Below are positions 42,513 through 49,681 of a stretch of DNA of 64,000 nucleotides, piece after piece (positions within the stretch are counted from its first letter, which is position 1; the number at the start of each line of letters is the position of its first letter). Origin of the DNA: Croceibacterium salegens. GTDB lineage: Bacteria > Pseudomonadota > Alphaproteobacteria > Sphingomonadales > Sphingomonadaceae. The stretch covers positions 1 to 64,000 of the forward strand of contig NZ_WTYM01000041.1 in assembly GCF_009827435.1 (NCBI RefSeq). The letters are read 5' to 3'. Both the position numbers and the translations under genes were made by a program. The notes beneath the pieces are model-generated. The model saw only the letters and a program-made list of their open reading frames with translations, ran no database searches and was not told where the DNA came from.

Positions 42513-43850
42513 TCACGGCGCCTCGCCAGCCGTGGGCGGATGCGGAGTCAGCCGCGACATGACGTACCAGGCGAGCGCGCCGAGCGCGATGTAGGTGGCG
42601 ATCCCGCCAACCGCGACCGCCAGCCCCACTGTGACCGCCGTAGCCGAATCCCAGACCCAGAGGATCACTCCGGCGAGGACGATGAAACCGGCAAGGCGGC
42701 CGTACAGCGCATAGCGCGCGTGCCCGGTCGAATGCAGCACCGGCTCGAACGCCACGCTGGCGAGTTCGAGGCTGGCGGCGAAGGTCAGCGGCACGAGGAC
42801 TGCGTATCCAGCCTCGAAGTCGCTGCCGCCGATCAGGTCGAGCAGCGGCTTGCCGAACAGTACGGCAAGGATGACCACCACCGCTCCTGCGGCCGCGGCA
42901 ATCAGCGAAGTCTGCCGCACAAGACGGCGGAACTCGGCGTGCTCGGCGGCGACGCGGGCGCGGTTGATCTCGGCGTAGGCGGCGCGAGTCAGAAGCACCG
43001 AAAGCTTGCCCAGCCCTTGGCTGAGCTGGTTGGCGAGCCGGTAGAGACCGGCGGCGCGGGTGCCGACGAGATAGCCGACCGCGAGCAGGGGGCCTTGCTT
43101 GACCGCGGCATCAAGCGTCGCACTGGCGAAAGCGACGAGCGAGAAGCGCACGATCCCCGGGTTGTCCTCGCCCGCCTGGCGCCAGTCGTGCAGGTGGCGC
43201 AGGTTGACCGCCTCCGGGCACAGGCGCCGCGCCAGGATCCAGTATCCGCCCGCCTCGATCAGGTCGATCGCCGCCCAGGCGGCGAGGAACCAGACCACCT
43301 TCGGATCGGTCAGCCAGATGGCCACCGCGGCGACGAGCCGCAGGCTGGGGACCAGCGCTTCCACATAGACCCCGAGGTCGAAGCGATCGAGCGCGCGGAC
43401 GATCCCGGTCGGCGTCGAAACCAGCGCGAACAGGCTGGCCACGGTGAACCAGAACGCCGCGTGGAGATATTTGGGGTTGAGGCCGAGCGCCTCGTTGAAC
43501 TCGAAATAGATCACGAACGCTATGATCACGCCGATCAGCGCTCCGGCGAGGTCGAGCAGTGCCGAGAGCATCGACAGCCGCCCGAACGCGGCCCAGTTGC
43601 CTGTATGGACGTGCTCGGCCCCGTAGCGCACCACCACGCGCCAGGTCTGCAGGCCCGAGAAGGCGATCAGTGCCTGCGCCGATCCGAAAATTAGCGAGAA
43701 GTGGCCGAAATCCTTGAGCCCGAGCGAGCGGGCAAGGATCGCGAGATAGACGAGGCTGCACAGCCCGCCGAACCCCTTGCCGCCAAGCAGCCAGGCGGTG
43801 TTCGCCAGCATGCGTCCAAGCAGCGAGCGGGGCTGGGAGGGAGCTGGCAT
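42513..43850 (-). CDS. Polysaccharide flippase, Wzx/MATE-like
   Basis: A 445-residue membrane protein with about 12-14 segments, starting LANTAWLLGGKGFGGLCSLV and LGLKDFGHFSLIFG, the typical opening of O-antigen and oligosaccharide flippases of the MOP superfamily. It would move a lipid-linked glycan or related lipid across the inner membrane. It diverges from the nucleotidyltransferase gene across 93 bases, which places it beside the putative headgroup cluster. ATG 43850 was chosen because the long upstream in-phase frame lies opposite that neighbour. Confidence 0.87.
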   Translation of the reverse strand: MPAPSQPRSLLGRMLANTAWLLGGKGFGGLCSLVYLAILARSLGLKDFGHFSLIFGSAQALIAFSGLQTWRVVVRYGAEHVHTGNWAAFGRLSMLSALLDLAGALIGVIIAFVIYFEFNEALGLNPKYLHAAFWFTVASLFALVSTPTGIVRALDRFDLGVYVEALVPSLRLVAAVAIWLTDPKVVWFLAAWAAIDLIEAGGYWILARRLCPEAVNLRHLHDWRQAGEDNPGIVRFSLVAFASATLDAAVKQGPLLAVGYLVGTRAAGLYRLANQLSQGLGKLSVLLTRAAYAEINRARVAAEHAEFRRLVRQTSLIAAAAGAVVVILAVLFGKPLLDLIGGSDFEAGYAVLVPLTFAASLELASVAFEPVLHSTGHARYALYGRLAGFIVLAGVILWVWDSATAVTVGLAVAVGGIATYIALGALAWYVMSRLTPHPPTAGEAP

Positions 43851-43943: not shown

Positions 43944-44684
43944 ATGATCGAGAACGCCATCCTGCTCAGCGCCGGCCAGGGCAGCCGCTTGCTGCCACTG
44001 ACCGCCGAACGCCCGAAATGCCTGATCGACTTCTCGGGCCGCTCGCTGATCGGCTGGCAGGTCGAGATGCTGGCGCGAGGCGGCGTGAAGCGGATCGACG
44101 TCGTCACCGGGTTCATGACCGACATGGTCGAGGCACACCTCACCGCCATCGCCGACCCGCGCATCGAGCTGCACGTCCACTTCAACCCGTTCTACAAGGT
44201 CGCCGACAACCTCGGTTCGTGCTGGATCGTGCGCGACCGCATGGCCGCGGGCGACTTCCTGATCCTCAACGGCGACACGCTCGTCGGCGAGGATATCGTC
44301 GCCAGCGTCCAGCAGGCCTCCGGCTGGCCGGTGTCCGTCACGGTCGACGTGAAGGCCGAATACGACAGCGACGACATGAAGGTCGAACGCGCCGCCGACG
44401 GTCGCCTTGTGCACATCGGCAAGACCCTGACCGCCGAGCAGTCGAACGCGGAATCGATCGGCTTCCTCGCCTTCCGCGGCGATGGGGCGGAAGCGTTCCG
44501 CGAAGCGATACGGCAGGCGATGCGCACGCCCGACGGGGTCAATCACTGGTACCTCAAGGTCGTCGACACCCTCGCCGCGAGCGGCAAGGTCGGCACCTGT
44601 TCGATCGAAGGTCTGGGCTGGGCCGAAGTCGACTACCTCAACGACATCGAGGATGCAACCGCGCTGACCGACAGCTGGGCCTAG
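43944..44684 (+). CDS. Sugar-phosphate or phosphoalcohol nucleotidyltransferase
   Basis: A 246-residue nucleotidyltransferase with the signature AILLSAGQGSRLLPLTAERP near the N-terminus, KCLIDFSG, and an acidic ILNGDTLVGEDI that holds the metal. Proteins of this size with NADNLGSCWI-like segments include inositol- or choline-phosphate cytidylyltransferases and sugar nucleotidyltransferases; substrate cannot be fixed. Near the CDP-alcohol phosphatidyltransferase, a CDP-headgroup product is an attractive inference. Its stop overlaps the convergent HIT gene. Confidence 0.82.
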   Translation: MIENAILLSAGQGSRLLPLTAERPKCLIDFSGRSLIGWQVEMLARGGVKRIDVVTGFMTDMVEAHLTAIADPRIELHVHFNPFYKVADNLGSCWIVRDRMAAGDFLILNGDTLVGEDIVASVQQASGWPVSVTVDVKAEYDSDDMKVERAADGRLVHIGKTLTAEQSNAESIGFLAFRGDGAEAFREAIRQAMRTPDGVNHWYLKVVDTLAASGKVGTCSIEGLGWAEVDYLNDIEDATALTDSWA

Positions 44685-45106
44685 AAGCGGGCCTTCAGTT
44701 CCGCCACCAGCGCATCGCATTGCGCGTCATCGAGCGCTACCGCCTGTCCAAGCTGCGGCACCGCCGGCCAGCCGGCATCGGCAAAGCTCACGCCGCCGAA
44801 TTCGCGCGCGCCCTCGTAGCGCGGGATGACGTGGAAATGGACGTGCGGGTCGACCATCATCAGCATCAGGTAGTTGAGCTTCGCGTACCCGCAGAAATCG
44901 GCCAGCGCCGCCTCGATAGCCGAGGTCACCGACTTCAGTTCGGCATGCGCCTCGCCCGGCAGGTCGCCGAACGCGGTGGCATCGCTCTTCGCTGCCAGCA
45001 CGAGGCAGCCGAGCGTCGGCTGCGCCGGGCGCAGCAGCACGACCCAGTGTTCGAACTCCCGGACCAGCGTCGCCGGCCAGCCGAATTTCTCGATCGTCGC
45101 GTTCAT
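44681..45106 (-). CDS. HIT-family protein
   Basis: A 141-residue histidine-triad hydrolase with the motif HVHFHVIPR (about residues 88-96). Members act on nucleoside phosphoramidates, dinucleotides or nucleotide-linked sugars. Here it lies four bases downstream of the phosphatidyltransferase gene on the same strand, consistent with removing or salvaging nucleotide products of that pathway, though this is inference. Confidence 0.9.
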   Translation of the reverse strand: MNATIEKFGWPATLVREFEHWVVLLRPAQPTLGCLVLAAKSDATAFGDLPGEAHAELKSVTSAIEAALADFCGYAKLNYLMLMMVDPHVHFHVIPRYEGAREFGGVSFADAGWPAVPQLGQAVALDDAQCDALVAELKARF

Positions 45107-45110
45107 CGCC

Positions 45111-46229
45111 TCACCCTTGCGCCAGCCATGACGTCACCGGCCGGCCGCTGCGTTGCTGCGCCACGGCCTGCACCAGCCGCACGAGATGCACCGCGCAGCT
45201 TAGCACGGTCCACACCGCCACCGCGACGATGCCGATGTCTGGACGGCCGAACAGCAGGGCGACGAAGAGGACCACCATGTTGGGATTGCGCCGCGCGGTA
45301 ATCAGGCGGAAGCGGCTGTCGAAGCGCTCCCAGACGTGGATGTGGATGCCGCCGAACCAGGCGATGAAGGCCCCCTCGATCAGCCGCTGCAAAACGTAGC
45401 CGCCGACGATCGCGCCCTGCACCCACCAGAACGTGCTGTCGGACAGAGCGAGGCCCCAAGTGGCGAGGCCGGTCGCCCAGAACCACCACCAGAACGGCGG
45501 GTGGACGAGGTCTATCCCGTGGTCGAGCACGTCGCCGAACTTGCTCGAGGTGATGGTGCAGCGCGCCAGCTTGCCGTCCACGGTGTCGAGCACCATGAAG
45601 ACGAAGCCCATTGCCATGCCGAGCCAGTAGTGCCCGTGCGCGAAGGCGACCGTCGCGGCGACGCAGAGCACCGCGCCGACCGCGCTCACCGCGTTGGGGC
45701 TGAGCCCGGCCCAGGCGGCGAAGCGTGTCAGCCACAGCGCCAGTTCGGGCCACAGGTACTTTGTCAGCAGGTCGGTGACGCCTTTGTAGGCGCCGAAATA
45801 GCTCGCCCGCTCGACCGCCCGGCGATTGTCGGCGGTAAGTTCGGTCAGGAACGGGCGTTCGCGCTTGCGCAGCACCTTGTTCTCGATGGCCGCGCCGTCC
45901 TCGTAGGCGGTGGCGGTAATGCCCTCGGGCAGCGGCGCGCCATCGCGGATCGCCGCGCGCAGGGCGGCCGCCTCGTGTTCGTTGCGAGCATGGGCCAACA
46001 CCGGGACGCCGCCCAGGGTCACGACCATGCCGGGGTGCGCGGCGACGTGGCCTAGCCAGGCCGGGTCGAAGGCATGGTCGGCGTTGACCAGCACGACCGG
46101 CGTGCCGGTTCCGCCGAGTCCGGCCTTGGCGGCCATGCGCCGCACCCGCTCGCCGGTGTCGAGACCCCACATCCGGACCGGGTTGGCGCCGACGGTTTCG
46201 ACGGAAATGGCGGGCTCGGTTTCGCTCAT
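45111..46229 (-). CDS. CDP-alcohol phosphatidyltransferase with an extra N-terminal domain
   Basis: Joins an alcohol to a phosphoryl group from a CDP-linked donor in the membrane. The 372-residue protein has the complete family motif D-x2-DG-x2-AR-x8-G-x3-D-x3-D: D215, D218, G219, R223, G232, D236 and D240, with several membrane segments after residue 160. The first roughly 130 residues are not part of this family; they contain VVLVNADHAFDPAWLGHVAA and look like a nucleotidyltransferase-type Rossmann remnant, as in bifunctional inositol-phosphate enzymes of archaea and thermophiles, but lack the full signature. ATG 46229 was chosen. It diverges from the lipid kinase gene. Confidence 0.85.
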   Translation of the reverse strand: MSETEPAISVETVGANPVRMWGLDTGERVRRMAAKAGLGGTGTPVVLVNADHAFDPAWLGHVAAHPGMVVTLGGVPVLAHARNEHEAAALRAAIRDGAPLPEGITATAYEDGAAIENKVLRKRERPFLTELTADNRRAVERASYFGAYKGVTDLLTKYLWPELALWLTRFAAWAGLSPNAVSAVGAVLCVAATVAFAHGHYWLGMAMGFVFMVLDTVDGKLARCTITSSKFGDVLDHGIDLVHPPFWWWFWATGLATWGLALSDSTFWWVQGAIVGGYVLQRLIEGAFIAWFGGIHIHVWERFDSRFRLITARRNPNMVVLFVALLFGRPDIGIVAVAVWTVLSCAVHLVRLVQAVAQQRSGRPVTSWLAQG

Positions 46230-46292
46230 GCGCGGCCAGCGCTTAAGGCCGGTGCCTGCCGAGCGCAAGAAAGCCCTAGCCACCTGCGGGAC

Positions 46293-47321
46293 ATGGCGAG
46301 TAAGCGCACCCCTGCAATGAGCGACGGCATCAAGACCTTCGACGAGCTCCCGCGGCCCGCCCCGGGATCTGGTGTCGACCCGGGGGTCGCGCGACGTACC
46401 GAACGAAGCGCCCCGCTGGTCGGGGTCATCCGCAACTCGCGCAGCTATCGCAACAAGGGCCGCGAGCAAGGCGTTGCGCCCGGCGTCGACGTCATCGTCG
46501 AAACCACCACCAAGCGCCGCGAGCTGGTCGGCGTGCTCGACGGCTTCGCGGCCAAGGGCATAGACTACCTCGCCATTTCCGGCGGCGACGGCACCGTGCG
46601 CGACGTGCTGACCTGCGGCGCGGAAATCTTTGGAACCGACTGGCCGACACTCATCGTCCTGCCCAAGGGCAAGACCAATGCGCTCGCCGCCGATCTCGGC
46701 GCGCCGGAGAACTGGTCGCTTGCCGCGGCGATGGAATCCGCCCGCGCCGGCCACTTCGTGACGCGCCGGCCGCTGGTCGTGTCCGTAGCCGCCGATCCGC
46801 AGGCGCGGGTCTACGGCTTCCTGTTCGGCGGGGGGGTGTTCCACCGCACCATCAAGCTTGGGCAAGGCGCCCATCGCTGGGGCGCGTTCAACGCCGCCGC
46901 GGTCGGCCTGACGACGGCATGGGCGCTCGGCCAAGCGCTGCTCGCCGGAAGCGAAAACCCGTGGCGCCAGCGCTCGCTCATGCGGATTACCCTGCCGGGA
47001 ACCGAACAGCTGTCCGGCGGAGACGAGCGCTATGTGATGATCGCCTCGACGCTCGAGAATCTTCCGCTCGGGGTCAAACCGTTCGGGAACCTGCGCGAAG
47101 GGCTCAAGGCCATCGTCCTCGACACGCCGGCGCGGCGCAGCCTGATGCACCTGCCGATGGTCGCGCTGGGCCGGCGCAAGGACGGGCGCGGCTACCATTG
47201 TTTTGCTGCCGAGAGCTTCGGGCTCGACATTACCGAGCCCTTCATCCTCGACGGCGAGGCCTTCCCGCCGGGCAACTACCGCATCTCGACCGGCCCCTCG
47301 CTGACGTTCGTCGCGTCGTGA
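46293..47321 (+). CDS. DAGK-family lipid kinase
   Basis: A 342-residue kinase of the diacylglycerol/sphingosine/ceramide kinase fold: SGGDGTVRDVL holds the GGDGT loop at 97-101, LPKGKTNALAADLG follows, and the C-terminal ILDGEAFPPGNYRIS matches the family end. It would phosphorylate a lipid hydroxyl such as diacylglycerol or ceramide. ATG 46293 was chosen; ATG 46317 is in phase. It overlaps the next gene (GTGA). I recall that Caulobacter uses a DAGK-family ceramide kinase (CpgB) for its anionic sphingolipid; whether this is its counterpart is not shown by this sequence. Confidence 0.87.
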   Translation: MASKRTPAMSDGIKTFDELPRPAPGSGVDPGVARRTERSAPLVGVIRNSRSYRNKGREQGVAPGVDVIVETTTKRRELVGVLDGFAAKGIDYLAISGGDGTVRDVLTCGAEIFGTDWPTLIVLPKGKTNALAADLGAPENWSLAAAMESARAGHFVTRRPLVVSVAADPQARVYGFLFGGGVFHRTIKLGQGAHRWGAFNAAAVGLTTAWALGQALLAGSENPWRQRSLMRITLPGTEQLSGGDERYVMIASTLENLPLGVKPFGNLREGLKAIVLDTPARRSLMHLPMVALGRRKDGRGYHCFAAESFGLDITEPFILDGEAFPPGNYRISTGPSLTFVAS

Positions 47322-48220
47322 ATGAAGCGCTTGAAACGCGCGTTTCGGCGATGCTCGCGCGCGAAGTTCGTCCCGAAGTCGTTCGGCAGGCGCAAGTACT
47401 CGGTGAAGAGGCCGGAGCGCTGGCGGTGCTGTTCTACGGTTCGAACCTGAGGACCGGCTCGCTCGAAGGGGTGCTCGACTACTACGCGCTGCTCCCGGGT
47501 CCGGCCGAGACCGGGCTGTGGCCGCGCGTTTCCTACCGCGAGTGGGACGACGCCGGAACCGGCGAGCGGCTGCGCGCCAAGTTCGCCGAAATGTCGCTCG
47601 CCAAGTTCGCCGAGGCAGCAAGCGGCCGAAGCCTCGACACGACGATCTGGGCGAGGTTCGTCCAGCCCAGCGCGATGGTCTGGGCGAAGGACGAAGCGGC
47701 GGCGGCGGCTGTCCGCGAGGCGATTGCCGAAGCCGCCCGCACCGCCGCCCGCCTCGCCGCCGCGCTCGGCCCGGCGAAGGGGCAGCCGGACGACTATTGG
47801 AAGGCGCTGTTCCGCGCCACCTATCGGGCCGAATTGCGGGTCGAGGCGCCGGGGCGCGAGAATTCGATCCTTGCCGCCAACCCGGCGCACTTCGACGGCC
47901 TGCTGCGCGCCGCACTGGTTTCCGCCGGGGTGCCGTTCCGCGACGACGGCGGACACATCGCCCCGCAGATCGAGCCGGGCGAACGGCGCGCCATCCTGAA
48001 CTGGTGGAACAAGCGCCGCCGGCTCGGCAAGGCGCTCAACGCCGCGCGGCTGGTGCGGGCCAATTCGACCTTTGCCGGGGCCCCGCAGTACATCGCCTGG
48101 AAGATCGAGCGCCATACCGGCGTCGCGGTCGAGGTCACCCCGTGGCGCGAGAAGCACCCGCTCCTCGCCGCGCCGGGAGTGCTGTGGAAGGTGTGGCGCT
48201 CGCGCCGCAAACCCGGGTGA
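47318..48220 (+). CDS. Nucleotidyltransferase-like protein of unknown family
   Basis: I do not recognise a named family for this 300-residue protein. The N-terminal segment ALAVLFYGSNLRTGSLEGVL has the GS...D pattern of the nucleotidyltransferase superfamily (G41-S42, with D54), which resembles the phosphatidate cytidylyltransferase Tam41 of mitochondria, and a C-terminal segment is basic (NKRRRLGKALNAARLVR). No signal peptide or transmembrane helix. GTG 47318 overlaps the lipid kinase stop, and the next gene overlaps in turn (GTGA), so the three are one transcript. A CDP-lipid synthase function is a suggestion only. Confidence 0.65.
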   Translation: MNEALETRVSAMLAREVRPEVVRQAQVLGEEAGALAVLFYGSNLRTGSLEGVLDYYALLPGPAETGLWPRVSYREWDDAGTGERLRAKFAEMSLAKFAEAASGRSLDTTIWARFVQPSAMVWAKDEAAAAAVREAIAEAARTAARLAAALGPAKGQPDDYWKALFRATYRAELRVEAPGRENSILAANPAHFDGLLRAALVSAGVPFRDDGGHIAPQIEPGERRAILNWWNKRRRLGKALNAARLVRANSTFAGAPQYIAWKIERHTGVAVEVTPWREKHPLLAAPGVLWKVWRSRRKPG

Positions 48221-48969
48221 GCGCGCCGGTCCTGATCCTCGCCGGGAGCCGCCCCGACGGTCTCGACCCGATCGCCACGGCCGAGGACGTGCCGCACAAG
48301 GCGCTCGCCCGGGTCGGCGGGCTGACGCTCCTCGAGCGGGCAGTCGCCGCAGCCCGGGCCTGGGGCGCGAGCGAAGTGCTCGTCGCGGCGAACAACCCGG
48401 CGGTGGAGGACGAAGTCCGGCGGCTCGGCGCGACCCTGCTGCCGACTGCGAGCGGCCCGAGCGGCAGCGTCGCGCTGGCTTTCGAACGCACCGGCGCGCC
48501 GCTGCTGGTCACCACCGCCGACCACGCCCTGCTCGAACCCGGCTGGCTCGCCGCGCTGGTCGCCGGAACTCCGGCCGACGCCGACGTGTCGCTGATGCTG
48601 GCGCGGCGCGAGGCGGTCGAGGCCGCTGCGCCGGGCAGCCAGCGGACATGGCTGTCGCTGGCCGACGGCGACTGGTCGGGGTGCAACCTGTTTTATCTCG
48701 CGTCCGCAGCCGCTCCGACGGCGCTTGCCACCTGGCGCCGGGTCGAGGCCGACCGCAAGCGCCCATGGCGCATCGCCGCCCGGCTAGGCTGGGGCACCTT
48801 GTGGAATTTCCTGCGCGGCAAGCTGACGATGGCCGAGGCCGTCGCGCGCATAGGGCAGCGCATCGGTATCACCGCGGCGCTGGTCGCAGCGACCGACGGG
48901 CGCGCGGCGATCGATGTCGACAAGCCCGCCGACCTCGCGCTCGTGCGCGCGCTGGCCGAAGCTCAGTAG
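48217..48969 (+). CDS. MobA-like nucleotidyltransferase
   Basis: A 250-residue MobA-like NTP transferase: LILAGSRPDG at the start, HKALARVGGLTLLERAVAAA, and a central LLVTTADHALLEPGWLAAL. The usual loop GxGxR is degenerate (AGSRPDG), but the acidic DH residues remain. Coupled with GTGA to the preceding gene, it is a second nucleotidyltransferase in the cluster and could activate a headgroup alcohol phosphate. Molybdenum cofactor biosynthesis is unlikely because no other mo gene is near. Confidence 0.78.
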   Translation: MSAPVLILAGSRPDGLDPIATAEDVPHKALARVGGLTLLERAVAAARAWGASEVLVAANNPAVEDEVRRLGATLLPTASGPSGSVALAFERTGAPLLVTTADHALLEPGWLAALVAGTPADADVSLMLARREAVEAAAPGSQRTWLSLADGDWSGCNLFYLASAAAPTALATWRRVEADRKRPWRIAARLGWGTLWNFLRGKLTMAEAVARIGQRIGITAALVAATDGRAAIDVDKPADLALVRALAEAQ

Positions 48970-49466
48970 TAGCGCATCGTGATGGAAATCGGCTTGACCG
49001 CGTTGCCGACCTCGAAGGCGGTCTTCTTGTAGCTCGGCCGGCCCATGTTGAAGAGATTGAGCGAGGGGTTGTTCGACATGCCGCCACCGTCCAGCGTCAT
49101 GTCGGTCTCGCCGTTACCGTTGATATCGTGACGAATGGCGATGCCGTAGGTGCCGGCAGCGGGCACCGGCATGCAGAAGGTCATCTGCCCGGCCTTGGCC
49201 GGGGTCTCGATGCGGTTGATCCACTTGCCCTTTTCGAGCCAGTCGGACGACGCGCTGCGATAGAGCTGGACGCGCATCGTCCCCGTCGAGGCCTTGATGC
49301 CGCTGACGGTAATCAGGACGGACGGCTTCTCCCCACGGCAGGCGGCCGGGTTGTTGGAGATCGTGTTGCGATAGGTCACCCCCTGCGCGCCGGCGAAGCT
49401 CGCCCCGGCAAGCGCAGCAAGCGCAAGCCCGGTAGCGGCAAGGCGAATGGTCACTGGACGGCTCAT
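48963..49466 (-). CDS. DUF2141 exported protein
   Basis: A 167-residue protein with a signal peptide (ATGLALAALAGASFAGA) and a DUF2141 body: SGIKASTGTMRVQLYR, then GTYGIAIRHDINGNGETDMT, an EF-hand-like D-x-N-x-N-G loop that may bind calcium. Family function is unknown. ATG 49466 was chosen because a GGAG lies 9 bases upstream; ATG 49481 is the in-phase alternative. Its 3' end overlaps the convergent nucleotidyltransferase gene by seven bases. Confidence 0.85.
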   Translation of the reverse strand: MSRPVTIRLAATGLALAALAGASFAGAQGVTYRNTISNNPAACRGEKPSVLITVSGIKASTGTMRVQLYRSASSDWLEKGKWINRIETPAKAGQMTFCMPVPAAGTYGIAIRHDINGNGETDMTLDGGGMSNNPSLNLFNMGRPSYKKTAFEVGNAVKPISITMRYY

Positions 49467-49681
49467 CAAGTCGAACTCCATCGGTCGTCGGGCGCTTGTT
49501 ATCTGTGCGGAAATGAAATGGCCCCGTTCGCAGGCGATTTCTAGCCGAGCGCGCTGAATAGCCTGTGAACTTGGCTGTCAGGAGCGCTAAAGCACCGATT
49601 AGCCGCCTTGCGGCGGTGGATAACGCACCGGGCACGTTTTATGCCCGAGTCCCATACCGCTAAGGCGGCGAAGGCAGCGCC

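Follow-up and report, generated by a model that had tools for sequence, protein, structure and literature searches.

Caulobacter carries an anionic sphingolipid, ceramide diphosphoglycerate (CPG2), in its outer membrane, and this lipid supports survival of the cell without lipopolysaccharide (LPS). The parts list for the synthesis of ceramide phosphoglycerate (CPG) and CPG2 is published for Caulobacter (PMC11324152, PMC12275187). Two of its enzymes have known activities, the kinase CpgB, assayed in PMC10331486, and the nucleotidyltransferase CpgD, assayed in PMC12275187. CpgA, CpgC and CC_1153 are known to be required from deletions. Here we describe a cassette at positions 43944-48969 of a 64,000-nucleotide stretch of Croceibacterium salegens DNA (contig NZ_WTYM01000041.1, positions 1 to 64,000; hereafter the window). 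By sequence and predicted fold, it is very probably the sphingomonad version of the Caulobacter CPG/CPG2 headgroup gene set. An earlier note on this DNA had proposed a lipid-headgroup or phosphosphingolipid pathway that may be undescribed. The pathway assignment holds, with counterparts of CpgA, CpgB, CpgC, CpgD and CC_1153 in the window and a serine palmitoyltransferase (Spt) in the genome. The suggestion of novelty does not, since the pathway is published in Caulobacter and orthologs of the CPG2 genes are reported for Sphingomonas wittichii (PMC11324152). What is new is the occurrence in this organism, a placement of CC_1153 suggested by co-occurrence, and two leads, both modest, on a HIT protein and on CpgD variants.

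The reference for our comparison is the cluster of Caulobacter vibrioides DSM 9893 (not NA1000). It was located by an exact match of the published cpgD primer, the only one of six published primers tested that matched this genome, and Caulobacter gene numbers are given here by order and annotation, not from the record. All six cassette genes have counterparts in this 17-kb cluster, at E values from 4e-42 to 3e-81; the flippase at the edge of the cassette matches more weakly (E 2e-32). The genes of the cassette and its flanks are as follows.

43944-44684, plus strand: CpgD, nucleotidyltransferase; PF00483 (E=1e-12); 46% identity to Caulobacter CpgD (E=2e-65)
44681-45106, minus strand: HIT protein; PF01230 (E=2.5e-5, above cut-off); 54% identity to its Caulobacter counterpart, CC_1157
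45111-46229, minus strand: CpgA, CDP-alcohol phosphotransferase; PF01066 (E=8.5e-9); 42% identity to Caulobacter CpgA over its full length (E=3e-81)
46293-47321, plus strand: CpgB, DAGK-family ceramide kinase; PF00781 (E=2.5e-10); 41% identity to Caulobacter CpgB (E=5e-59)
47318-48220, plus strand: CpgC, Tam41-like nucleotidyltransferase; no Pfam or NCBIfam match; 54-56% identity to Caulobacter CpgC (E=2e-78)
48217-48969, plus strand: CC_1153-like nucleotidyltransferase (MobA/CofC-like); PF12804 (E=4e-15); 51% identity to CC_1153 (E=7e-66)
42513-43850, minus strand: flippase of the oligosaccharide/lipid family; PF01943 (E=3e-15); 28% identity to the flippase of the Caulobacter cluster, CC_1166 (E=2e-32)
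48963-49481, minus strand: DUF2141 secreted protein; PF09912 (E=6e-23); recurrent neighbour, possible accessory

All eight reading frames, from the flippase through DUF2141, are open, with 86-91% guanine plus cytosine at third codon positions. The genes listed in the earlier note are thus real and lie where it placed them, and all but the one at 47318 match a Pfam family. The CDP-alcohol transferase catalytic motif of CpgA is intact (DTVDGKLARCTITSSKFGDVLDHGID). CpgB contains a GGDG motif at residue 97, and its similarity to the Caulobacter enzyme bears out the note's comparison with a DAGK-family ceramide kinase. The residues by which CpgD binds cytidine triphosphate (CTP) and glycerate have been taken from structures (PMC13228409), and the window protein keeps G12, R16, K26, N90, N110, G111, D112, S170 and W201, with T93 replaced by serine. 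CpgB, CpgC and the CC_1153-like gene form a trio coupled by two GTGA overlaps, at 47318-47321 and 48217-48220, as described earlier; the start codon of the third gene is the GTG at 48217. The CpgD and HIT genes are convergent and overlap by 4 bases. Scans for consensus promoters and terminators gave no match, nor did Rfam and tRNA searches of the window. The cassette genes are found together again in the same genus and family and also in far relatives, so their grouping is not chance. The conservation check that the earlier note proposed shows co-occurrence of the genes, and all of them fall into a single pathway rather than into unrelated well-known ones.

No serine palmitoyltransferase lies within the window, as had been noted. 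One is found on another contig of the genome (C53, 13097-14224; 53% identity, E=3e-135). Scattered CPG2 genes are also the published state in Sphingomonas wittichii (PMC11324152). We searched 289 alphaproteobacterial genomes with four proteins (CpgC, CpgA, HIT and Spt), and the 40 Spt-containing genomes with two more (CC_1153 and CpgD). Fisher values assume independent genomes and are therefore overstated; values collapsed to genus level were also computed. CpgC is present in 34 of the 289 genomes, every one of which has Spt (34/34), and in 0 of the 249 genomes lacking Spt. CpgA is present in 20 of the 289, all of them with CpgC (20/20). Among the 40 Spt-containing genomes, CpgD accompanies CpgA exactly (20/20 with CpgA, 0/20 without; genus-level p=3e-7). 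CC_1153 occurs in 32 of 34 genomes with CpgC versus none of the six that have Spt and lack CpgC (genus-level p=1e-4). CpgB, followed by a neighbourhood check only, adjoins CpgC in 11 of 12 loci. Together with the distribution of HIT described below, this pattern argues for a trunk made up of CpgB, CpgC and CC_1153 and a branch made up of CpgA, CpgD and HIT. Because CC_1153 follows CpgC and not CpgA, its role probably lies in the CPG trunk.

CpgC is the one cassette protein without a recognized family. It has no match in NCBIfam or in Pfam, in the latter even at E 10; searching solved sequences with a profile yielded nothing beyond chance matches, and Tam41 was not among them. The structure was modelled with 35 relatives and gave a predicted local distance difference test (pLDDT) score of 94.2 and a predicted template modelling (pTM) score of 0.90. 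The top fold match of this model is Tam41 (7ecd; Z 16.4, 218 residues aligned, root-mean-square deviation 3.4 Å), and the next unrelated entries stand at Z 7.4. Tam41 is the peripheral mitochondrial-type CDP-diacylglycerol synthase. Its structures (6ig2, 6ig4 and 7ecd) share with predicted CpgC the fold over 210-218 residues (Z 15.6-16.4), a YGS motif and an invariant Asp. CpgC differs from Tam41 in its low identity (~13%), its lack of a Pfam match, its operon context and its expected substrate, ceramide-1-phosphate. A published InterPro hint for CpgC points toward Tam41 too (PMC11324152). The predicted fold favours activation of ceramide-1-phosphate by CTP, and CpgC is most likely a CTP:ceramide-1-phosphate cytidylyltransferase. 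Given this fold, and with CpgB supplying ceramide-1-phosphate, the likely product is CDP-ceramide.

The model of CpgA (pLDDT 94) best matches the fold of AF2299 (4q7c; Z 22.8, 309 residues aligned, root-mean-square deviation 3.0). CpgA resembles AF2299 and IPCT-DIPPS (4q7c and 4mnd; Z 22.8 and 20.3) in joining a cytoplasmic nucleotidyltransferase-like domain to a membrane CDP-alcohol domain. It is unlike them in sequence (~14% identity) and in its N-terminal domain. This domain does not reach the length of a complete cytidylyltransferase and has no counterpart in Pfam, so that it is probably not catalytic, and the activated donor would be expected to come from CpgD.

The pathway that these assignments suggest has a trunk and a branch. 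CpgB would phosphorylate ceramide to ceramide-1-phosphate (step 1). CpgC would then use CTP to convert ceramide-1-phosphate, most likely to CDP-ceramide (step 2). Attachment of glycerate or phosphoglycerate to the activated ceramide would form CPG (step 3), and CC_1153, to judge by its co-occurrence, probably helps in this trunk. In the branch, CpgD would make CDP-glycerate from CTP and 2-phosphoglycerate (step 4). CpgA would transfer phosphoglycerate from CDP-glycerate onto CPG, resulting in CPG2 and cytidine monophosphate (step 5). The HIT protein may act on a nucleotidyl group in the branch of CpgD and CpgA, by hydrolysis or by transfer; one such task would be to remove excess CDP-glycerate or a by-product capped with a nucleotide. 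Outward movement of the finished lipid is probably assisted by the flippase at 42513.

Several points weigh against this reading. All activities in this organism, including the making of CPG and CPG2, are inferred from sequence and fold only. The step from activated ceramide to CPG has no enzyme assigned in the pathway. Searches of the window and the rest of its contig, extended to the 20 kb around Spt for cerS, cerR, aasR and acpR, gave no convincing match to these four genes and none to the CC_1158 phosphoesterase; neither search was genome-wide. CC_1158 is dispensable in Caulobacter and absent from S. wittichii (PMC11324152). Finally, the placement of CC_1153 in the trunk is in tension with its published assignment to CPG2 only: its deletion in Caulobacter keeps CPG, loses CPG2 and raises ceramide (PMC11324152). 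A CDP-alcohol transferase near CpgC in the genomes lacking CpgA would explain CC_1153 there, and none was found by motif in six such loci. The C. salegens genome holds a second CC_1153-like gene on contig C30 (47851-48603; 33% identity, E=3e-26). Several clusters (L017, L061, L065, L067 and L068) have, between lptG and cerS, an additional CDP-alcohol transferase with 33-36% identity to CpgA that the Caulobacter cluster lacks. This protein might supply the missing step from activated ceramide to CPG. In one further locus (L114, genome G317) CpgA occurs twice, at a distance of about 9 kb; HIT and CpgD accompany one copy, and the other has only a CC_1153-like gene beside it.

We next consider the HIT protein. 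Its Caulobacter counterpart sits between the CC_1158 phosphoesterase and lptF2 and is thus CC_1157 by position. CC_1157 was judged probably unrelated to the pathway in PMC11324152, the only paper on this gene that we found; a literature search combining sphingolipid, Caulobacter and HIT domain found none. The HIT triad of the window protein reads DPHVHFHV; across 22 sequences H90 and H92 never change, and the first His is variable. Among the 289 genomes, HIT occurs in 15 of 20 with CpgA versus 0 of 14 with CpgC but not CpgA (p=1e-5; genus-level p=1e-4), and in 8 of 255 others. It lies directly behind CpgA on the same strand, mostly with a stop/start overlap or a gap of fewer than 20 bases, in 34 of 40 family loci around CpgA, a set that consists of the best CpgA matches plus chosen others and, like our other family sets, is not a random sample. 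A further family genome set has HIT in 27 of 35 genomes with CpgA versus 0 of 25 without. This distribution suggests that HIT belongs to the CPG2 pathway and has been overlooked so far.

The association could instead be attributed to hitch-hiking, with HIT an unrelated housekeeping gene carried behind cpgA in an old operon, and we give this explanation slightly less than an even chance. Homologs of equal similarity stand among unrelated genes in eight genomes that have neither Spt nor CpgA. HIT as an exclusive marker of CPG2 is ruled out, as these eight carry it without Spt. Five genomes outside the family have CpgA and normal CpgD residues and lack HIT, and eight genomes inside the family have CpgA without it. 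The Pseudomonas plasmid set described below has CpgA and CpgD and lacks HIT as well, and CC_1157 is not named in published cofitness lists. Set against hitch-hiking are the counts above, in which HIT tracks CpgA and is missing where CpgC occurs without it. In four genomes (G080, G095, G196 and G231) HIT is on a different contig, so linkage alone does not explain its association with CpgA. HIT is also retained on a betaproteobacterial conjugative plasmid.

A second lead comes from CpgD itself. A variant cytidylyltransferase, ~38% identical to the window CpgD and with Ser for Asn90 and Tyr or Phe for Trp201, lies at or near the CpgA locus in four genomes of the family: G354, G398 and, from the same genus as the window, G477 and G518. 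Among solved structures, one variant best matches a nucleotidyl transferase/aminotransferase (6pd1, E=2e-15). This match prompted the idea of a phosphonate headgroup, and by eye no phosphonate genes were recognized beside the variant in locus L102. All four variant-bearing genomes, from three genera, lack HIT, and all 33 family genomes with an Asn90-type CpgD, that of the window included, have it. In four other family genomes without HIT (G330, G409, G468 and G316), no CpgD was found near CpgA; the rest of these genomes was not searched. A general rule that HIT is lost when CpgD is replaced fails outside the family, where the five HIT-less genomes have normal CpgD residues. The changed residues, which are substrate contacts, suggest that the variant may serve a different headgroup. 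Both leads can be joined in one proposal: HIT would be a nucleotide hydrolase or transferase dedicated to the CDP-glycerate branch, and sphingomonads would exchange CpgD and HIT for a variant cytidylyltransferase giving another headgroup on the same ceramide phosphate scaffold. We hold this joint proposal tentatively, as possible rather than probable.

If headgroups can be exchanged, the cassette in the window might itself belong to a related phosphosphingolipid pathway that uses the same enzyme families to attach a different headgroup, such as another phospho-alcohol. The variants make such exchange plausible in this lineage, two of them being in the same genus, and the match of one to 6pd1 points the same way. 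The window CpgD, however, retains Asn90, Asn110, Ser170, Trp201 and a hydroxyl residue at 93, and the window holds the full Caulobacter set, including HIT. A different headgroup here is therefore unlikely. A glycerolipid pathway, with phosphatidic acid as the product of the kinase, CDP-diacylglycerol as that of the Tam41-like protein and a phospholipid of the inositol or glycerol type as that of the CDP-alcohol transferase, would fit the in vitro phosphorylation of diacylglycerol by CpgB (PMC10331486), the activity of Tam41 as a CDP-diacylglycerol synthase and the resemblance of CpgA to archaeal CDP-alcohol transferases and phosphatidylinositol-phosphate synthases, but it is highly improbable and we reject it because CpgC is confined to Spt-containing genomes, the more so as this genome encodes three other CDP-alcohol transferases for housekeeping lipids and phosphatidic acid is unchanged on cpgB deletion in Caulobacter (PMC10331486).

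The flanking genes of the CPG/CPG2 cassette recur with it to different degrees. The flippase adjoins CpgD in many family loci. DUF2141, whose gene and the MobA-like gene meet tail to tail with overlapping ends, stands beside the CpgB-CpgC trio in about 10 of the 40 family loci, and also in G245 and Qipengyuania. In Roseomonas mucosa, where the same set is clustered with HIT included, DUF2141 is annotated between HIT and the phosphoesterase. It is possibly an accessory gene of the cassette.

Similar sets are found on plasmids. Plasmid pDCB2 of Diaphorobacter sp. JS3051, a conjugative IncP plasmid, carries a near-complete CPG2-type set beside mercury resistance genes (L147, 49844-74746). This set comprises CpgA, CpgC, CpgD, CC_1153, HIT, the phosphoesterase, LptF/G, a CerS-like protein and a second CDP-alcohol transferase. 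On plasmid pPNP1 of Pseudomonas sp. JS425, a set of the ceramide and CPG type lies close to a class 1 integron that contains sul1 (L148, 60832-85698). Here CpgA and CpgD are present, HIT was not found, and an IS5 insertion apparently splits the CerS-like gene.

Knowledge of the organisms able to make CPG2, and of the genes they use for it, is relevant to the question of how outer membranes manage without LPS. The pathway's chemistry is only partly worked out. Our comparison offers assignments that can be tested directly: CpgC would be a CTP:ceramide-1-phosphate cytidylyltransferase, CC_1153 would act in the trunk leading to CPG and HIT in the branch leading to CPG2, and sphingomonads would be candidates for an exchange of headgroups.

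Of the described systems, Sphingomonas wittichii (PMC11324152, Fig. 7) is, by that paper's description, alike in being a sphingomonad with CPG2 genes over several regions and no CC_1158; the HIT gene is not treated there as a pathway member. The Caulobacter crescentus cluster CC_1168-CC_1152 (PMC11324152, PMC12275187, PMC10331486) differs from the window in arrangement. In the window, cpgB, cpgC and the CC_1153-like gene are one GTGA-coupled trio, divergent from cpgA and HIT, with CpgD convergent; ceramide genes and LptF/G are elsewhere or not found in the window, which also has no CC_1158. Common to both are CpgA, CpgB, CpgC, CpgD, CC_1153, CC_1157 and, weakly, the CC_1166 flippase. In both, the kinase adjoins CpgC, CpgA lies beside the two, and the active-site residues of CpgD are kept.

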